Shown here: one piece after another, positions 1,766-34,015 of the stretch
Numbering within the stretch: the stretch's first letter is position 1
How the letters are laid out: each line of letters starts with the position of its first letter
Source of the DNA: a virus
DNA: 34,839 bases
Direction: 5' to 3' (one strand)
IMG/VR virus record: IMGVR_UViG_3300044591_001307
Span: 1-34,839 of that record
Program-made: the position numbers and the translations under genes
The notes under the pieces: generated by a model
What the model was told of the DNA's origin: nothing
Database searches by the model: none
The model's input: the letters and a program-made list of their open reading frames with translations, nothing else

Positions 1766-3112
1766 TCAAACTCCAGGAAGTTGTGGTCCTGTACGCTTTA
1801 GAGCAGATTGTGCTTCATTTGGGTTATTTGTTCCCTTTCCCAAATTATAAATCTTTTGAGTTTTTTGTGCTGCTTTATGAGCAGTGGGATCAATTGGTTC
1901 AGGCATTACACCTTCAACAATGCTTTTAATGTTTTCACTATCCATTTGCATCATTACATAAAGTGCTTCTTCTAAGGTGTCTACGTGCCCCTGTGAGAAG
2001 AGATACTCAAGGACTAAATCATAGGCATCATTCATCATTTTTTGCTCCTTGACTGGGTTTTTGGAAGCACTAACTCCAGCTTTGACTGCCGATAGTTCTT
2101 GTTCTTTTGTAGATTGTCCTGCAGACTTTGCTTTATCTCTTGCTTCTCGTGCTGCTGCTAGTTCTGCAGAAGTTGCTGCCCTTCTTTCAAATTTAACTCC
2201 ACCTACAGACCCTAGAGCATATCCTGCAGGGGATTTTTCAATCTTTGGTTGTGGTGCTGGTCTAGGTGCAGGAGCAGTTCTTGCAACAGGAGGTTGTGCT
2301 GCAGGTGCAGGTGAAGGTCTAAGTGTAGGTGGCGGCGGGGTTGCTCTTCCTGCATTTGGATCTCCAACCCAATCACCACTAGTACGAAATTCTGGATCTC
2401 TTCTTTTATTTTGTTCAGAATCCCATCTTTCCTTAGCTTTTTTTGCAGCTTCTGGATCCGTAATGGGTACATATTTTCCTGCTTTATTTTTTTGATACCA
2501 TCCTCTACCACCCTTTCCAGTTACTGGCGCTACTTGTGCTGGTGCTTCTGTTACTAAGGAATCATTTTCAGATTCGAAATGATTGACAATAACTGCCCCT
2601 TTTGGATCTTTTTTTACTGTTGGTGTTTGTCTTGCTACTGGCGGTTTTCCAGTTGGAGTTCTCCTTCCAGATCTAACATCCGGATCTGCCGACTTTTCTG
2701 GTGGAGGAACTAGCCATTGACCCAATTGTTTGCCTAGATCTTGACTTTGAGTAGGTTTAGGTGTTTGGGTTGAAATTTCTTTTGCAGTTGGTGGTTTGGA
2801 TTGTGGTTTTCCGCCACCGGAACCAAGAACTCTTTCAACAGATTTACCAATTTTTTCTAAATCTACAGAACCACCGGTAGCAGCTTTTGTTATTCCTGAA
2901 ATTGCCGATCCAGCATAATCCGCAACGGATTTAATAACTCCAGCAACTGGAGTTGCGATTTTATCACTCTCTCTACCAACTACTCTAGCACCCTTTTCCC
3001 ACTGCTTAGAAACGTCACTCTGCTGCTCGTCTAACTCAGTATTGTTATGAGAATAAATTGATCGGTAAATATCATCAATTTCATTAATTTTTTTCGAAGA
3101 AAGCTCGCCCAT
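1766..3112 (-). CDS. Proline/alanine-rich probable virion protein, 448 residues
   Basis: The N-terminus (about 100 residues) is helical with a glycine-rich patch (GSAISGITKAATGGS). A long low-complexity centre rich in Pro, Ala, Lys and Arg follows (residues about 100-310, with PPPPTLRPSPAPAAQPP). Near residues 364-401 is a compact helical motif, VLEYLFSQGHVDTLEEAL followed by VMMQMD. The same pattern occurs in the protein at 34066-34683. The gene is flanked by a late promoter and its own terminator, so it is a late monocistronic unit. I do not recognise a T4 counterpart. A virion or assembly role is inferred from late control and composition. Confidence 0.75.
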   Translation of the reverse strand: MGELSSKKINEIDDIYRSIYSHNNTELDEQQSDVSKQWEKGARVVGRESDKIATPVAGVIKSVADYAGSAISGITKAATGGSVDLEKIGKSVERVLGSGGGKPQSKPPTAKEISTQTPKPTQSQDLGKQLGQWLVPPPEKSADPDVRSGRRTPTGKPPVARQTPTVKKDPKGAVIVNHFESENDSLVTEAPAQVAPVTGKGGRGWYQKNKAGKYVPITDPEAAKKAKERWDSEQNKRRDPEFRTSGDWVGDPNAGRATPPPPTLRPSPAPAAQPPVARTAPAPRPAPQPKIEKSPAGYALGSVGGVKFERRAATSAELAAAREARDKAKSAGQSTKEQELSAVKAGVSASKNPVKEQKMMNDAYDLVLEYLFSQGHVDTLEEALYVMMQMDSENIKSIVEGVMPEPIDPTAHKAAQKTQKIYNLGKGTNNPNEAQSALKRTGPQLPGV

Positions 3113-3140: not shown

Positions 3141-3148
3141 TATTTATA
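3141..3148 (-). promoter_or_regulatory. T4-type late promoter TATAAATA fused to a terminator
   Basis: An exact TATAAATA lies 29 nt before the ATG at 3112. Its first T is also the last T of the U-tract of the terminator at 3149-3175. Confidence 0.8.
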
Positions 3149-3175
3149 AAAAAAGAGGGTCCGAAGACCCTCTCA
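3149..3175 (-). terminator. Rho-independent terminator with TTCG loop, downstream of nrdB unit
   Basis: On the minus strand GAGGGTC (3172-3166), loop TTCG and GACCCTC (3161-3155) form a perfect 7-bp stem closed by a stable tetraloop, followed by seven Ts. It ends the nrdA-nrdB transcription unit. Confidence 0.9.
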
Positions 3176-4571: not shown

Positions 4572-4868
4572 TTAAACCTCAATAATCAAAACATCTTTTT
4601 TAGTCATAGGAATTTTAACATCCTGTTTTTTACCGTCAAACTCATCACAATAATCACAAATTTCTTCAGTAAAGGAATAATAGTCAATATTACTTTGCCA
4701 CTTTGTAGTGTAATTACAGTAATTGATTGATGATTGGAAGATGGCAAACTCATCCTCAATATTCTCATAATAATTGTCCTTGTATATAATCAGGACTTCC
4801 ATATCATCAGGATATTGTAAAAGTGCTTCTTTTAGATGTTTAACTTTCATAACTCTTGATAACTCCAT
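4572..4868 (-). CDS. Hypothetical protein downstream of GIY-YIG gene, 98 residues
   Basis: The first ATG (4868) has AAAGGA five nt upstream and overlaps the endonuclease gene by 22 nt. A second ATG at 4850 overlaps its stop as ATGA and gives the 92-residue form MKVKHLKEALLQYPDDMEVLI. That beginning is typical of a family of small phage proteins of unknown function, so either start is possible. The C-terminal half is acidic with a run of aromatic residues and CDYCDEFDGK. It probably travels with the endonuclease as cargo between nrdA and nrdB, since the NrdA tail remnant lies on its other side. Confidence 0.75.
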   Translation of the reverse strand: MELSRVMKVKHLKEALLQYPDDMEVLIIYKDNYYENIEDEFAIFQSSINYCNYTTKWQSNIDYYSFTEEICDYCDEFDGKKQDVKIPMTKKDVLIIEV

Positions 4869-5530
4869 CTGTATCCTTTACAGTGATTGAATTTTCCTTC
4901 ACAGGTATATTTAATGTTAGAAGGATTTGTTTCTACAAATTTAGCAGCATCACTAATAGATTGAAACTCTCTTAAAAAGTTTCCTTCAATATCATACTGG
5001 AATACTTTGGTTCTTTTTATGTTTGGATTGTTTTTTAGTGTTTGAGAAGTTTTAGATTTACTTTCTTCTTTGTGTGATTTTCCAGCAAATCCACAAGGAG
5101 ATGGTTGTCCCTTTCTCATTTTACTCCACTTTTCTTTTTGTTCTTCGGTATGTGTTTGATTGTAGAATGGATTTTCTTCTTTAATAAATTTACCTTTTCT
5201 TTTTAATGACAATAGTTGCTTCGTTTTTTCTGTATGAGAATACCCAAGCATACCACCATCACCACCAAGAGTTTGATTATATTTTGGTTTTAATTTAGAA
5301 ATCCAAAACATTTCTCTAAAACCTAAATTATCTTCACATTTTTCAATTTCTTCAATAATAAAATTGTCTTTTCCATACTTTCTAATTGCCCGATGAAGAT
5401 ATGTTGTTGAACTTCTTTTAGTGGCATCATAGCAGTGACTATAAAATCTTTTTTTCAAAGAGTTCATTGTCTTTCCAACATAAGTTTTATTATTGATTTT
5501 ATTGGTTATTAGATAAATGCGTCCAGACAT
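4847..5530 (-). CDS. GIY-YIG homing endonuclease between nrdA and nrdB, 227 residues
   Basis: The N-terminus reads GRIYLITNKINNKTYVGKT, the GIY-YIG core. The catalytic Arg region follows (KKRFYSHCYDATKR), then RAIRKYGKDNFIIEEIE and the conserved Glu in FREMFWI. Residues about 95-150 hold NUMOD3-like repeats (GYSHTEKTKQLLSLK, THTEEQKEKWSKMRKG), and the C-terminus has a NUMOD1/helix-turn-helix-like part (SISDAAKFVETNPSNIKYTC). This is the domain order of free-standing homing endonucleases. It sits exactly between the two reductase genes, a site used by mobile endonucleases in other T4-like phages. Expression is probably late, through the hairpin-enclosed promoter at its start. Confidence 0.92.
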   Translation of the reverse strand: MSGRIYLITNKINNKTYVGKTMNSLKKRFYSHCYDATKRSSTTYLHRAIRKYGKDNFIIEEIEKCEDNLGFREMFWISKLKPKYNQTLGGDGGMLGYSHTEKTKQLLSLKRKGKFIKEENPFYNQTHTEEQKEKWSKMRKGQPSPCGFAGKSHKEESKSKTSQTLKNNPNIKRTKVFQYDIEGNFLREFQSISDAAKFVETNPSNIKYTCEGKFNHCKGYRWSYQEL

Positions 5531-5540
5531 AGATATTATT

Positions 5541-5572
5541 AAAACCTATTACTATTTATAATAATAGGTTTT
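5541..5572 (-). promoter_or_regulatory. Late promoter inside the loop of an 11-bp hairpin
   Basis: On the minus strand AAAACCTATTA (5572-5562) and TAATAGGTTTT (5551-5541) are perfect inverted repeats. The 10-nt loop contains exact TATAAATA (5560-5553), 23 nt before the endonuclease ATG. Read-through RNA from nrdA would fold the AGG-containing 3' arm into the stem. RNA started at the late promoter would lack the 5' arm and stay open. Confidence 0.65.
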
Positions 5573-5582
5573 AATAGTTTTG

Positions 5583-10498: not shown

Positions 10499-10506
10499 TA
10501 TTTATA
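10499..10506 (-). promoter_or_regulatory. T4-type late promoter TATAAATA fused to a terminator
   Basis: An exact TATAAATA lies 32 nt before the ATG at 10467. The U-tract of the terminator just upstream supplies its first T, in the same 16-nt context (TTTTTTTATAAATATC) as the promoter at 3141-3148. Confidence 0.8.
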
Positions 10507-10540
10507 AAAAAAGAAGACCTTTACTTTTGGCCTTCTTTAT
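10507..10540 (-). terminator. Rho-independent terminator after the 59-residue gene
   Basis: On the minus strand AAGAAGGCC (10537-10529) pairs with GGTCTTCTT (10519-10511), with one G-T wobble, and seven Ts follow. It lies shortly after the stop codon of the small hydrophobic protein gene. Confidence 0.85.
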
Positions 10541-14708: not shown

Positions 14709-14727
14709 TTTTATTTTTATTTAGAAG

Positions 14728-14809
14728 TGCCCAAAAGAGGACTTGAACCTCCACTCCTTACGGAACAAGTGCCTAAAACTTGCGTGGCTACCAATTACAC
14801 CATTTGGGC
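14728..14809 (-). tRNA. tRNA-Leu (anticodon UAG)
   Basis: The minus strand folds into a class II tRNA. Acceptor GCCCAAA pairs with TTTGGGC, the D stem is GTG/CAC, and anticodon stem CAAGT/ACTTG holds loop TTTAGGC (anticodon TAG). A long variable arm (TCC/GGA stem) and T loop TTCAAGT follow. The discriminator is A, as in tRNA-Leu, and CCA is not encoded. Its first 15 bases are also the end of the HNH endonuclease gene. Confidence 0.93.
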
Positions 14810-15256
14810 TAATGAATTTCTTCCACAAAAAGTTTCAGTTTGTGAATGACAATTTGGACAAAGCAATCTTAAATTTGAAACTTCATTATTATAACATAAT
14901 CCATCAATATGGTCAACTTGCATTCTTAAATATTTTCCATTCCAAACAGATGCAATTCCACACTCAAAACAATAATCTCCATTTTTTTCAACTAACAATC
15001 TATGTAAGATTGATCTTCTACATTTATTACCTCTAGATAAAACATATTCCTCCAAACTATTCCATTTATTTTGTCCACCAAATTTAGATAATTTTTTAGT
15101 ATTATTTGGTTTGTATTCAGGTATCCATTTTTTATATCTAGAGCGTAATGTATCCGGTTTACAATTTAATTCTAAACATAATTCAGTTGGAGTTTTTTTG
15201 CCATTTAATAAGGATTTAATTATATAATCTTTTTTTAAATCTATATCTTTTCTCAT
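14795..15256 (-). CDS. HNH homing endonuclease between two tRNA genes, 153 residues
   Basis: The N-terminal half has a helix-turn-helix-like part (TPTELCLELNCKPDTLRSRYK) and a basic linker. The C-terminal half is an HNH nuclease with CFECG and CPNCHSQ zinc knuckles. The core is MQVDHIDGLCYNNEVSNLRLLCPNCH, containing the catalytic DH, the central N and the final H. The last codons (SLAQMV-stop) are read from the tRNA-Leu acceptor and D-arm sequence. A TATAAATA late promoter lies 22 nt before the ATG, in the loop of an imperfect inverted repeat. It is likely a mobile element lodged in a tRNA cluster. Confidence 0.92.
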   Translation of the reverse strand: MRKDIDLKKDYIIKSLLNGKKTPTELCLELNCKPDTLRSRYKKWIPEYKPNNTKKLSKFGGQNKWNSLEEYVLSRGNKCRRSILHRLLVEKNGDYCFECGIASVWNGKYLRMQVDHIDGLCYNNEVSNLRLLCPNCHSQTETFCGRNSLAQMV

Positions 15257-15261
15257 AATTA

Positions 15262-15296
15262 GTAAACGTGCTAGTATTATTTATATTAGCGTCTAC
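15262..15296 (-). promoter_or_regulatory. Late promoter in hairpin loop, HNH gene at 14795-15256
   Basis: On the minus strand GTAGACGCTA (15296-15287) can pair with TAGCACGTTTAC (15273-15262), giving ten pairs with one G-T and a 2-nt bulge. The 13-nt loop contains exact TATAAATA (15285-15278). The layout matches the promoter at 5541-5572. Confidence 0.5.
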
Positions 15297-15302
15297 CTAT
15301 AA

Positions 15303-15374
15303 TGGAGTGTAAGGAAATCGAATCCTTATTGCTGGAATGCAAATCCAGAGTAATAACCGTTATACGAACACCCC
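15303..15374 (-). tRNA. tRNA-Ala (anticodon UGC)
   Basis: The 72-nt minus-strand cloverleaf has acceptor GGGGTGT/ACACTCC with the G3-U70 pair that marks tRNA-Ala. Anticodon stem CTGGA/TCCAG holds loop TTTGCAT (anticodon TGC), and the T arm is AAGGA/TCCTT with loop TTCGATT. The discriminator is A and CCA is not encoded. It lies just downstream of the metallopeptidase gene. Confidence 0.93.
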
Positions 15375-15389
15375 AATAAAACCATTATA

Positions 15390-26173: not shown

Positions 26174-26707
26174 TCAAAGGTAATAATAGTTTGCGAATGA
26201 TTTACTTCTCATTCTCCAACTTACAGTATCTTTATGGATACCAAGTATTGTAGCACATTCTTTTACAGATTCATAAATCACACCATCAACATAGCATTTT
26301 TTTCCCATAGATTTTGAAAGATTTTTTTTATGCTCTTCAGTAAAGGGAACTCCTTTTCTTGGATGAGAATTTTTAGACCAATATTCTTTTTGGGACTTAC
26401 GCATTTTATCAATAGAATCTTTTGTGTGCTTCGTTCCCCACAAAGAATTCAAAGAAGGATTTAACCATTCGCAGTATTGTTGTTCCACGGATTTAATGTC
26501 TTCACCTTCGTGAATCCATTTGACAACTTCAATAGTAAAATTATGATATCCATATTTTAAAAAATTGTTATAAAGTTTAGGACAATCCATTTTATTACTA
26601 TTACACATTGTTATATGTTTAGCAAATCTAAGCATATAATTCTTTTCAGTAGAACCTATGTAATTTTCTCCTGTTATTTTGTTTCTTATTTGATAAACGC
26701 AACTCAT
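26174..26707 (-). CDS. GIY-YIG homing endonuclease upstream of gp44, 177 residues
   Basis: The core is SCVYQIRNKITGENYIGSTEKNYMLRFAKH, with VYQI and YIG plus the catalytic Arg (LRFAKH). The helix NNFLKYGYHNFTIEVVKWI and the Glu of SVEQQYCEWLNP follow. The C-terminal part holds a NUMOD3-like stretch (FTEEHKKNLSKSMG) and a HTH-like end (SVKECATILGIHKDTVSWR). The ATG is inside an 11-bp hairpin and follows a GAGG site in its loop. It is inserted in the gp45-gp44 interval, a conserved replication junction in T4. Confidence 0.92.
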   Translation of the reverse strand: MSCVYQIRNKITGENYIGSTEKNYMLRFAKHITMCNSNKMDCPKLYNNFLKYGYHNFTIEVVKWIHEGEDIKSVEQQYCEWLNPSLNSLWGTKHTKDSIDKMRKSQKEYWSKNSHPRKGVPFTEEHKKNLSKSMGKKCYVDGVIYESVKECATILGIHKDTVSWRMRSKSFANYYYL

Positions 26708-26744
26708 TTACTAAACCTCGTAATATAATACTATTTAGTAAATG
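26705..26744 (-). promoter_or_regulatory. Start-codon hairpin of GIY-YIG gene upstream of gp44
   Basis: On the minus strand CATTTACTAAA (26744-26734) and TTTAGTAAATG (26715-26705) are perfect 11-bp inverted repeats. The final ATG of the 3' arm is the start codon, with GAGG in the 18-nt loop. ACTAAATA (26739-26732), a distant match to the late octamer, overlaps the 5' arm 25 nt from the start. Confidence 0.55.
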
Positions 26745-26750
26745 AATTAT

Positions 26751-27260
26751 TTACACCCATTCTGGTTTACGTTCTGGCATACGGAGATAGTTGTCCGCAA
26801 CCCAGGGTTTGGAAGCAATATACATTTTGTATGCAGTAAATGTATCAATGCTTTCATCAAATTTGTATTCGTCAGGCATAGCACGAACGAATGGAGTCAC
26901 CTCAGTAATCTTTCCTTTGGGAAAAAGGTAGTATGCGGCAACAAGAGTATTATAACACGAATGCTGCTTGCCGTATCGCAGAGTGTACTCATCACAGAGA
27001 TTCATCCCGTGCTTAATCAACCAGTAGGCATTGTCAATAGTCTTTGCTACCCATTGAGTGCAGGGATGATTGCGAAAGGCACCCTTCTCAGTTGCATAGG
27101 AGGTTCCATCTGCTTTAGGAAGAGTGCCATAGTTGTGATACCACTTAGATGCCACGATAGAAAGCATTTGGCAGCACTCAAGAGACATTTTCGTTACGTG
27201 ACGGTCAGGAAGTACGATAGCACTTTCTGCTGGAAATGGTGAAGTGACAAAAATATTCAA
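26751..27260 (-). CDS. Pyrimidine-dimer DNA glycosylase-like protein, 169 residues
   Basis: The protein begins NIFVTSPFPAESAIVLPDRH and contains MSLECCQMLSIVASKWYHN, ATEKGAFRNHPCTQWVAKT and DEYTLRYGKQHSCYNTL. That layout belongs to a widespread phage family usually annotated as pyrimidine dimer DNA glycosylase, from similarity to T4 endonuclease V-type enzymes. The catalytic assignment is from family naming, not from proven residues. The start is a TTG at 27260 directly after the HNH gene stop, with GAGG about 9 nt before. No in-frame ATG lies upstream. Confidence 0.7.
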   Translation of the reverse strand: MNIFVTSPFPAESAIVLPDRHVTKMSLECCQMLSIVASKWYHNYGTLPKADGTSYATEKGAFRNHPCTQWVAKTIDNAYWLIKHGMNLCDEYTLRYGKQHSCYNTLVAAYYLFPKGKITEVTPFVRAMPDEYKFDESIDTFTAYKMYIASKPWVADNYLRMPERKPEWV

Positions 27261-27262
27261 AG

Positions 27263-27844
27263 TTAGTTCCTCAAAGTTTTGTAATAATTTAAAAGTAGTT
27301 CTAACTCTTTAACTGTAGCATCTCTCTTTAAGATATTTGCTCTTCTACTGACAACTGTAACATTTCCTTTTATATAACCTTTGGAACTGTCAATTCTATC
27401 TACACTCGGAGCATACATCCAAGTTTGTTTGTCTTCTCTTTTTAACTCAAATCCAAATACAGGGCATTTTTCTGGAATTATAATATCTTCCAATTCAATA
27501 GAAAACTCTCTTCCAGTTCTTTTGCATCTTGATTTGATGTTTTTGTAGAGAAGTTTAGCAGCATCAACTTTCCAATCTCTGTTTAATTTTTCAATTTGTC
27601 TTATTTTTGTAGAACATTTCTTACAAATGTCTTTTGTTCCAGAATTAACATTCCATTTTTCAATTAAACTAAACTTATTAAGATTTAGTGATTGATTGCA
27701 CTTTTTGCAAACTTTGTATCTGTTTGGATTTTCTTCTCGGTGTTTCATACCAAATTCTCTTGCATTATATACATTCATACATTTGCGAGAGCAAAATTTT
27801 CTTTGTCTTTTGCCAAGAATAGAATTACATTCCAAACAATACAT
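27263..27844 (-). CDS. HNH homing endonuclease with zinc fingers, 193 residues
   Basis: Two zinc-finger-like parts open the protein: CLECNSILGKRQRKFCSRKC and, near residue 45-80, VCKKCNQSL followed by DICKKCSTK. The nuclease part has CPVFGFELK and then APSVDRIDSSKGYIKGNV, where DRIDS is the H-N-H-type active core with N and H replaced by a variant, and VTVVSRRANILKRDA. Such proteins are common in cyanomyoviruses as mobile HNH genes. A late promoter lies 25 nt upstream and the ATG is in a 7-bp inverted repeat. It abuts the TTG of the glycosylase-like gene. Confidence 0.82.
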   Translation of the reverse strand: MYCLECNSILGKRQRKFCSRKCMNVYNAREFGMKHREENPNRYKVCKKCNQSLNLNKFSLIEKWNVNSGTKDICKKCSTKIRQIEKLNRDWKVDAAKLLYKNIKSRCKRTGREFSIELEDIIIPEKCPVFGFELKREDKQTWMYAPSVDRIDSSKGYIKGNVTVVSRRANILKRDATVKELELLLNYYKTLRN

Positions 27845-27896
27845 TTGATTATCTTCTAACTGTATAAGTATTTATAAAAAGAAAACTTACAAATGT
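27841..27896 (-). promoter_or_regulatory. Late promoter between inverted repeats, HNH gene at 27263-27844
   Basis: On the minus strand TATAAATA (27876-27869) lies between ACATTTG (27896-27890) and CAAATGT (27847-27841). The second arm holds the start codon. The 7-bp stem and 42-nt loop are weaker than at 5541 and 26705. An inner TAAGT/ACTTA pair sits around the promoter. Confidence 0.6.
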
Positions 27897-33188: not shown

Positions 33189-33908
33189 TCACACCTTTTT
33201 ATCCAGTTCCTCAACTGTCACAACCTTCCAACCCTTATGGTTTGTATACTTACCACGAGCAACAGAAGTCATTAAACGAGCAGTTAAATTATGTTCTTCA
33301 CAAAATTTTTTCATATTATTAGTAATGAAAATATTTTCATCAGGACTTTGAATTGTATATTCATATTTTATACTTCTATTAGAAAGTTTTTTTAAAGTTT
33401 CTGGTGTTGCTTTTCTACCAATATTCCATTTACCATATTCAACACCTACTTTGTTTGATATAATTCTTCCAAGAACCCAACCATCACCAGGACATTCTTT
33501 ACAAAGTTTTTCTTTTATACCATTATTCCATCTTTTATTTCCCTTTCTAACTTTACTCAATTTTTCTCTATGTTTTTGAGATAGGGACTTACCAAGTTTT
33601 TTTTGTCTCATTTTTTCCTTTGTAATATCACTTATATTTGATGTTCCATCACCACCTTCTGTCCTATTATGCAGAATACCTGTCCCCAAATCTTTTCTAC
33701 CAAAAACAGCAATCATATACTTTTCGTGATTAAATGCCTCTTCTTCTAAAAGATTTTTCTTTAAAAACAAAATCCGTTCTTTTGGTGGAACAAAAATATT
33801 GATGTGATTTTTACTATATGCCCTATCTCTTTGGCCCTTACCAATATAATAAGGAGTTCCATCTTTACGCAAATAAGCGTAAGTATAAAATCTTTTTGGA
33901 TTTTTCAT
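33189..33908 (-). CDS. GIY-YIG homing endonuclease upstream of the VWA gene, 239 residues
   Basis: The N-terminus, FYTYAYLRKDGTPYYIGKGQRDRAYSKNH, is a GIY-YIG core (YAYL, YYIG) with a longer, basic loop. The later catalytic Glu is probably in LEEEAFNHEKYMIAVFG. NUMOD3-like repeats follow (TKEKMRQKKLGKSLSQKHRE), and the end has a HTH-like part (MKKFCEEHNLTARLMTSVA). This is a free-standing homing endonuclease. An AGTAGG site lies before the ATG, and a late promoter 25 nt upstream is enclosed by a large inverted repeat. Confidence 0.92.
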   Translation of the reverse strand: MKNPKRFYTYAYLRKDGTPYYIGKGQRDRAYSKNHINIFVPPKERILFLKKNLLEEEAFNHEKYMIAVFGRKDLGTGILHNRTEGGDGTSNISDITKEKMRQKKLGKSLSQKHREKLSKVRKGNKRWNNGIKEKLCKECPGDGWVLGRIISNKVGVEYGKWNIGRKATPETLKKLSNRSIKYEYTIQSPDENIFITNNMKKFCEEHNLTARLMTSVARGKYTNHKGWKVVTVEELDKKV

Positions 33909-33914
33909 CCTACT

Positions 33915-33996
33915 CTAATACAACGGCATAAGTATTTATACAGGAAAAGGCACCCGAAAGTGCCTTAACCATCCTAACAGATTGCCGTCGTATTAG
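33915..33996 (-). promoter_or_regulatory. Inverted repeat enclosing a late promoter and terminator, GIY-YIG gene
   Basis: On the minus strand CTAATACGACGGCA (33996-33983) and TGCCGTTGTATTAG (33928-33915) pair over 14 positions with one G-T. The loop contains the terminator at 33947-33966 and exact TATAAATA (33940-33933), 25 nt before the ATG. A further GATAAATA lies just outside at 34011-34004. Confidence 0.6.
33947..33966 (-). terminator. Hairpin, probable terminator
   Basis: AAGGCAC (33966-33960), loop and GTGCCTT (33953-33947) on the minus strand form a 7-bp stem followed by TTCC, a weak U-tract. It lies inside the larger inverted repeat before the endonuclease. Confidence 0.6.
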
Positions 33997-34015
33997 GTTC
34001 AACTATTTATCATAC

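Follow-up and report, generated by a model that had tools for sequence, protein, structure and literature searches.

A hairpin at the gene start combined with a late promoter has been reported for the homing endonucleases I-TevI, I-TevII, I-TevIII and SegB of phage T4 and for MobE of Aeromonas phage Aeh1 (PMC2988022; PMC3014915). The genes for I-TevI (in the td intron), I-TevII and I-TevIII are located within early or middle transcription units with a late promoter just upstream, as are the genes described here, and the stem of the I-TevI type prevents translation from initiating on read-through transcripts and is unable to form on late ones (PMC2988022), the same behavior as is predicted below. 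The present genes differ from that of I-TevI in being free-standing and residing in cyanophages, which are devoid of MotA, and one form of their leader, hereafter the composite leader, adds a terminator within the stem. Free-standing homing endonuclease genes with a start hairpin and a late promoter, as here, are also represented by mobE and segB: mobE lies in a ribonucleotide reductase gene, similar to the site of the gene starting at 5530 described below, and segB in the T4 tRNA region (PMC2988022), similar to an HNH gene starting at 15256 between tRNA genes. However, the nuclease at the nrd site is of the GIY-YIG type here and of the HNH type in the case of mobE, and an enclosed terminator has not been described for either mobE or segB. 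The T4 late genes e, soc and 49 (endonuclease VII) are similar in that a stem in the early RNA conceals their start (PMC3014915); unlike the genes considered here, they are non-mobile, although gp207 of Synechococcus phage S-SRM01 closely parallels gene 49. In Aeromonas phage 25, a stable hairpin precedes the free-standing Seg endonuclease gene seg43, as here, but the stem leaves the ribosome site free and an enclosed late promoter has not been described (PMC2988022).

The window, i.e., the whole 34.8-kb stretch of DNA analyzed here, is a viral contig record from a T4-like cyanobacterial phage. It carries nrdA/nrdB and genes for DNA polymerase, clamp, clamp loader, RegA, UvsX, Hsp20, MazG and a CobS-like ATPase, along with tRNA-Leu and tRNA-Ala, and the closest match to its nrd DNA among annotated phage records is S-SRM01. 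All recognized phage genes lie on the minus strand, to which the coordinates of all stems, promoters, leaders and endonuclease genes below refer. TATAAATA, the T4 late promoter octamer, occurs 9 times in the window, exclusively on this coding strand (expected, 2.5 +/- 1.6), and 8 of the 9 copies are situated shortly upstream of a gene start. In T4, late RNA starts 5 to 7 nt past the octamer. For cyanophage S-PM2, NATAAATA has been reported as the late motif, and MotA is absent from cyanomyoviruses (PMC2984593). The endonuclease genes of the window are embedded in early and middle operons, namely nrdA-nrdB, the clamp and clamp-loader genes, and the tRNA cluster.

We consider it likely that the hairpins in front of these genes act as cis-acting locks. 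Free-standing homing endonuclease genes would thereby remain silent as long as they are carried on early or middle read-through transcripts, and would be opened only by transcription from their own late promoter. Read-through RNA would hold both arms, and the start region would thus be paired, such that ribosomes could not load, whereas a gp55-type late polymerase starting at TATAAATA inside the hairpin would produce RNA lacking the 5' arm, with an open leader of ~16–19 nt. In the simple version of the lock, the octamer occupies the hairpin loop (5537–5576 and probably 15262–15296), whereas in the composite version (33905–34010) read-through RNA would mostly be terminated first and the remainder blocked at translation. 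The start sites are assumed from T4, and we infer them together with termination, the translational block and late-only expression.

The initial annotation placed an 11-bp repeat with a late octamer in the loop at 5541–5572; the repeat is indeed present and is longer, forming a perfect 15-bp hairpin at 5537–5576, with arms and loop TATTAAAACCTATTA-(TTATAAATAG)-TAATAGGTTTTAATA, a 10-nt loop and six bases between the stem end and the ATG at 5530. The gene that it precedes (4847–5530), located in the nrdA-nrdB interval, encodes a free-standing GIY-YIG homing endonuclease, as judged from its domains (NUMOD3 and NUMOD1) and from empty sites, and the octamer TATAAATA in the loop (5553–5560) would direct transcription from ~5547, if T4 is a guide. 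The window contains 5 perfect inverted repeats with arms of 11 bp or longer and loops of no more than 20, compared with 0.22 per shuffle; 5537–5576 is the longest of these, and stems of at least 14 bp were seen in 0 of 60 shuffled windows. Another of the five, with 12-bp arms (26704–26745), spans the start of a further endonuclease gene. The start region at 5530 is the costliest to open of 35 gene starts (18.9 kcal/mol, a value reached in 0 of 100 shuffles), and its predicted opening cost drops from 17.3 kcal/mol on read-through RNA to 4.4 kcal/mol on late RNA. The initial annotation stressed concealment of the AGG in the 3' arm; as this AGG is 14 nt from the ATG, the stem more likely blocks the ribosome footprint in the start region than hides a classical Shine-Dalgarno sequence. 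A point against the lock is that no good Shine-Dalgarno sequence is visible before 5530.

Among ~75 IMG/VR relatives of the 5530 gene, the hairpin is near-universal, with the stem found in every readable leader and the exact octamer in the loop in all but one of them. One lineage carries AGACC/GGTCT in place of AAACC/GGTTT and G.U intermediates are present, the compensatory change in this family being modest, with few independent changes. Furthermore, of 82 loci with the GIY-YIG gene, 81 have TATAAATA after nrdA, as against 0 of 77 loci without the gene, in which nrdA and nrdB are mostly adjacent. Because they occur solely at loci that carry the endonuclease gene, the hairpin and promoter belong to the inserted cassette. 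The I-TevI-type reading originally put forward for this site thus fits what we observe: the predicted late RNA lacks the 5' arm, the hairpin persists among relatives, where some of the changes are paired, and hairpin and promoter are absent from loci without the gene. Control of the I-TevI/mobE/segB type, a further case of a known strategy, is well supported by this combination of folding predictions and comparisons.

The same annotation extended the arrangement to six endonuclease genes, each with a start repeat that encloses or abuts a late or late-like octamer. For the group, this was borne out: the six gene starts rank 1, 2, 3, 5, 6 and 10 of 35 by opening cost (p = 1.8e-5, the value spanning 1.8e-5 to 3e-3 over nine window choices). 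Singly, 5541, 26705 and 15262 exceed all 100 shuffles, whereas 1652 (marginal) and 27841 (weak) are within chance, with 13 and 16 of 100 shuffles as high, respectively; at 26705 the octamer is outside the stem, and the signal at 33915 emerges only when more upstream sequence is taken in. Between read-through and late RNA, the predicted opening cost falls from 10.5 to 0.4 kcal/mol at 15256, from 7.6 to 1.8 at 27844, from 20.5 to 8.0 at 33908, from 10.5 to 2.7 at 1660 and from 14.2 to 8.4 at 26707; four non-endonuclease late genes with exact octamers show a change of 0 to ~3.

The stem at 15262–15296, also found in related loci L203–L208, encloses TATAAATA (15278–15285) and precedes an HNH endonuclease gene (14795–15256; domain searches) located between two tRNA genes. 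The 3' end of this gene (14795–14809) overlaps tRNA-Leu (14727–14809), and tRNA-Ala (15302–15375) lies on the other side. A 12-bp stem at 26704–26745 covers the ATG of a gene for a GIY-YIG endonuclease with an I-TevI-like DNA-binding domain (26174–26707; domain searches), with the late-like TGTAAATA (26748–26755) just outside, so that late RNA would retain most of the stem. The stem is kept in nearly all relatives, and the TATAAATA octamer occurs in only two, outside the stem; as a late-promoter switch, this site is a poor fit and was rejected. Its loop, TAGTATTATACTACGAGG (26714–26731; relatives L084–L125), shows almost no variation and could contain a sigma70-like -10 promoter rather than a late promoter. 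A weak stem at 27841–27896, which surrounds TATAAATA (27869–27876) before an endonuclease VII/HNH-like gene (27263–27844; profile search), is not beyond chance alone, as judged by shuffles and relatives, and the hairpin claim was dropped for this gene, the stem test being passed by only 4 of 28 relatives. At 1652–1689, a stem that is marginal by shuffles and opening cost lies downstream of the late-like GATAAATA (1682–1689) and over the start of gene 1229–1660; the latter, although initially counted among the six, is SegE-like (phrog_447) and not clearly a homing endonuclease.

The repeat noted at 33915–33996 does form a stem with the octamer, of 14 bp, but belongs to a different, composite structure that encloses an intrinsic terminator as well. 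In this leader (33905–34010; 78.2 bits with covariance model R1), the 5' arm CTAATACGACGGCA (33983–33996) and the 3' arm TGCCGTTGTATTAG (33915–33928), the latter followed by a bulged A and GTAGG ahead of the ATG, make up the outer stem, within which the terminator GGCACTTTCGGGTGCC-TTTT (33945–33964) and the late promoter octamer TATAAATA (33933–33940; octamer scan) are located. The gene under its control (33189–33908) encodes a homing endonuclease of a GIY-YIG-like family (TYAYLRKDGTPYYIGKG), a label that is based on PHROG matches and the YYIGKG motif because a PDB profile search gave no confident match and only weak GIY-YIG ones (E 0.22).

A further 80 loci were gathered by protein similarity only, and an alignment of 40 leaders was built from sequence without structure. 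RNAalifold applied to this alignment recovered the same outer stem, a conserved single-base bulge and the terminator, with two-sided compensatory changes at 20 of 20 counted pairs. Paired cells amount to 92.0% in the family compared with 67.2% in shuffled and at most 55% in slid alignments, and covariation is 0.719 compared with 0.267 in the control; compensatory change maintains the outer stem (helices 1 and 2) separately from the terminator stem. Of 63 late-octamer leaders, 54 have a perfect helix of 10 bp or more surrounding the octamer, compared with 32 of 306 cross-paired controls, and the median predicted opening cost over 57 composite leaders falls from 13.9 to 2.8 on late RNA. In this family, AGAG is situated at the end of the stem. 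In the modeled structure, the composite leader is a new form of the known strategy, in which termination and a translational block would be nested around the late promoter.

Model R1, built from this alignment, matches the window, related loci, phage B23 and S-SRM01 (six times), and all matches that were checked, except for one, precede endonuclease genes. The exception, L058:4405-4509, is a full composite leader with no endonuclease gene behind it, perhaps a scar of gene loss. None of the 4227 Rfam models matched the composite leader, the matches in the window being tRNAs only; five related loci yielded only tRNAs and one abiF match outside the leader (L518:4389-4425, E 1.2e-6), ~1.4 kb downstream of a composite-leader endonuclease gene. 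No description of such a leader was found in the open-access literature, to which the search extended.

A short element at the start of the 5' arm, X (CCTAA, 33993–33997), can pair either with the ATG-adjacent 3' side or with X' (TTAGG, 33973–33977) just past the arm; when X pairs with X', the outermost portion of the outer stem cannot form, and the X:X' match exceeds all of 2000 permutations. Tentatively, the composite leader might therefore be not a passive lock but a portable two-stage switch, in which an attenuating terminator is combined with a translational block, X:X' could set the share of read-through RNA that is opened, and the whole is passed as a unit from one nuclease gene to another, unrelated one; we regard this as possible rather than probable.

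The composite leader precedes both GIY-YIG-like genes and HNH genes (the latter in L154, L158, L300, and S-SRM01 gp066 and gp297). The leaders of gp297 (HNH) and of L493 (GIY-YIG-like family) are identical at 91 of 98 aligned positions, whereas comparison of the two proteins revealed no meaningful similarity. Regulation of the two folds, for which convergence or sharing had been suggested, is shared in relatives: one leader before genes of both folds is an exchange of a regulatory part and not convergence. The leader travels with the endonuclease gene and is swapped between GIY-YIG and HNH genes.

The association with endonucleases was also seen in a blind screen of 443 loci (4.28 Mb), comprising 458 distinct TATAAATA sites before ORFs in 185 protein clusters, which were classified by local profiles and motifs. 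Pairing between the upstream sequence and the octamer-to-start segment was scored against shuffled upstream sequence, with 95 nt taken upstream, a 45-nt stem screen having missed the composite leaders. A score of z <= -3.5 was obtained for 15 of 49 endonuclease clusters and for 1 of 136 others (Fisher p = 4.7e-9, to be read with the caveat that many loci were retrieved via the window endonucleases, making the screen partly non-independent, and that the clusters are phylogenetically non-independent). The top ten clusters of the first screen were all of the GIY-YIG, HNH or endonuclease VII types, and PHROG scans assigned the weak-pairing group mostly to unknown late proteins and in a minority to endonucleases. 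A leader's own arms outdo every tested foreign arm in 28 of 88 endonuclease leaders, compared with 3 of 80 others.

A cleaner test is offered by S-SRM01, a cultured phage with a complete genome. Of its 28 gene-preceding TATAAATA sites, those with the eight strongest stems are all at endonucleases, strong stems being found at 8 of 14 endonuclease sites and 0 of 14 others (~p = 0.001 by hand). Equal hairpins at other gene starts, named in the initial annotation as a refuting observation, were not encountered by opening cost, shuffles, clusters or S-SRM01. Given that many endonuclease genes with TATAAATA lack a strong stem (22 of 49 clusters, which are above z = -2, and 6 of 14 sites in S-SRM01), the lock is common and not universal. 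Endonuclease relatives in RN05-S, ACG-2014f and S-N03 (L528, L530 and L531) lie within late operons, the insertion in RN05-S and ACG-2014f being between uvsY and uvsW; in all three, the gene starts within ~25 nt of the upstream gene, leaving no room for the leader, and model R1 found no match. These three cases would accord with a lock that is required in early or middle operons alone.

Explanations other than a translational lock were weighed against these data. Fortuitous pairing, whereby A+T-rich intergenic DNA yields inverted repeats around A+T-rich octamers, could account for 27841 and 1652, which individually are within chance, but for the group it is excluded by the shuffles, cross-pairing, the 136 non-endonuclease clusters, S-SRM01 and covariation, and for 5541 and 33915 it is refuted individually; we give it next to no credence. 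We also find it very improbable that the structures are mere terminators or insulators that end upstream transcripts, with the translational block being incidental. The composite leader does include a real intrinsic terminator, and at non-endonuclease late genes (window 3141–3175 and 10499–10530, and many other loci) the T-run of an intrinsic terminator continues directly into TATAAATA (GGGTCTTCGGACCCTCTTTTTTTATAAATA); in place of the hairpin lock, the remaining late genes of these phages apparently depend on an octamer-fused terminator. The simple hairpins, by contrast, lack a T-run and stop six bases short of the ATG, and compensatory change in the composite outer stem proceeds without regard to the terminator stem.

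Alternatively, the inverted repeats could be DNA operators, palindromes over the late promoter that are bound by the endonuclease or another protein, resulting in repression. I-TevI binds an operator overlapping its own late promoter (PMC2988022), and the core of the 5541 palindrome, including the loop, is highly conserved in sequence. Nevertheless, the similarity of the 5530 leader to 75 empty nrdA-nrdB junctions is no greater than to shuffled junctions, and the composite arms vary freely with pairing kept, with G.U pairs and a one-sided bulge, which fits RNA and not a DNA site for one protein family. An autorepression operator overlapping the late promoter was thus set aside on the leader/empty-site comparison; in I-TevI, it is an extra layer, outside the hairpin mechanism. 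As a general account, the operator is unlikely, although a role of this kind could be additional to the hairpin at 5541, and a stem could instead affect how stable the RNA is or serve as a site in the DNA. We favor the RNA lock; observed in its support are the structures and their covariation, the association with endonuclease genes, the confinement to loci that carry the gene, and the exchange of leaders.

What was known from a few examples of the T4 era thus becomes a general rule testable on many genes: a late promoter enclosed by an RNA stem is the mark of a mobile endonuclease in cyanophages. Exchange of leaders between GIY-YIG and HNH genes shows that the regulation of selfish genes is itself a mobile, interchangeable part, and the composite leader constitutes a covarying RNA family absent from Rfam, with six copies in one cultured phage. 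Endonuclease genes that had been labeled hypothetical are brought to light as well, and start codons are corrected: in S-SRM01 (NC_070963), the annotated starts of gp075 (51291) and gp297 (192466) fall within the RNA leader, either in the terminator or adjacent to it, and the true starts are probably at 51348 and 192520, respectively.

Stems at other kinds of genes were seen as well. S-SRM01 gp207 (126172 in the record), which has an endonuclease VII domain, is preceded by a 14-bp hairpin that encloses late octamers and ends at the ATG. A late gene of the endolysin type, coding for a C39-like peptidase, has its start at 15451 in L431 and at 15814 in L421; an octamer-enclosing stem is present in 1 of 3 distinct leaders, which may parallel T4 gene e. 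Finally, late proteins of very unlike length have in common the N-terminal peptide MSR.TG.DA..LMEAY..VYAPQEL or MK(S/T)F.EFL.EA (window 1766–3112; L434, L370, L371 and L023; S-SRM01 175050, 176324 and 177710). The latter peptide resembles T4 capsid-targeting sequences, and the late proteins bearing these peptides are possible virion-internal or injected proteins.
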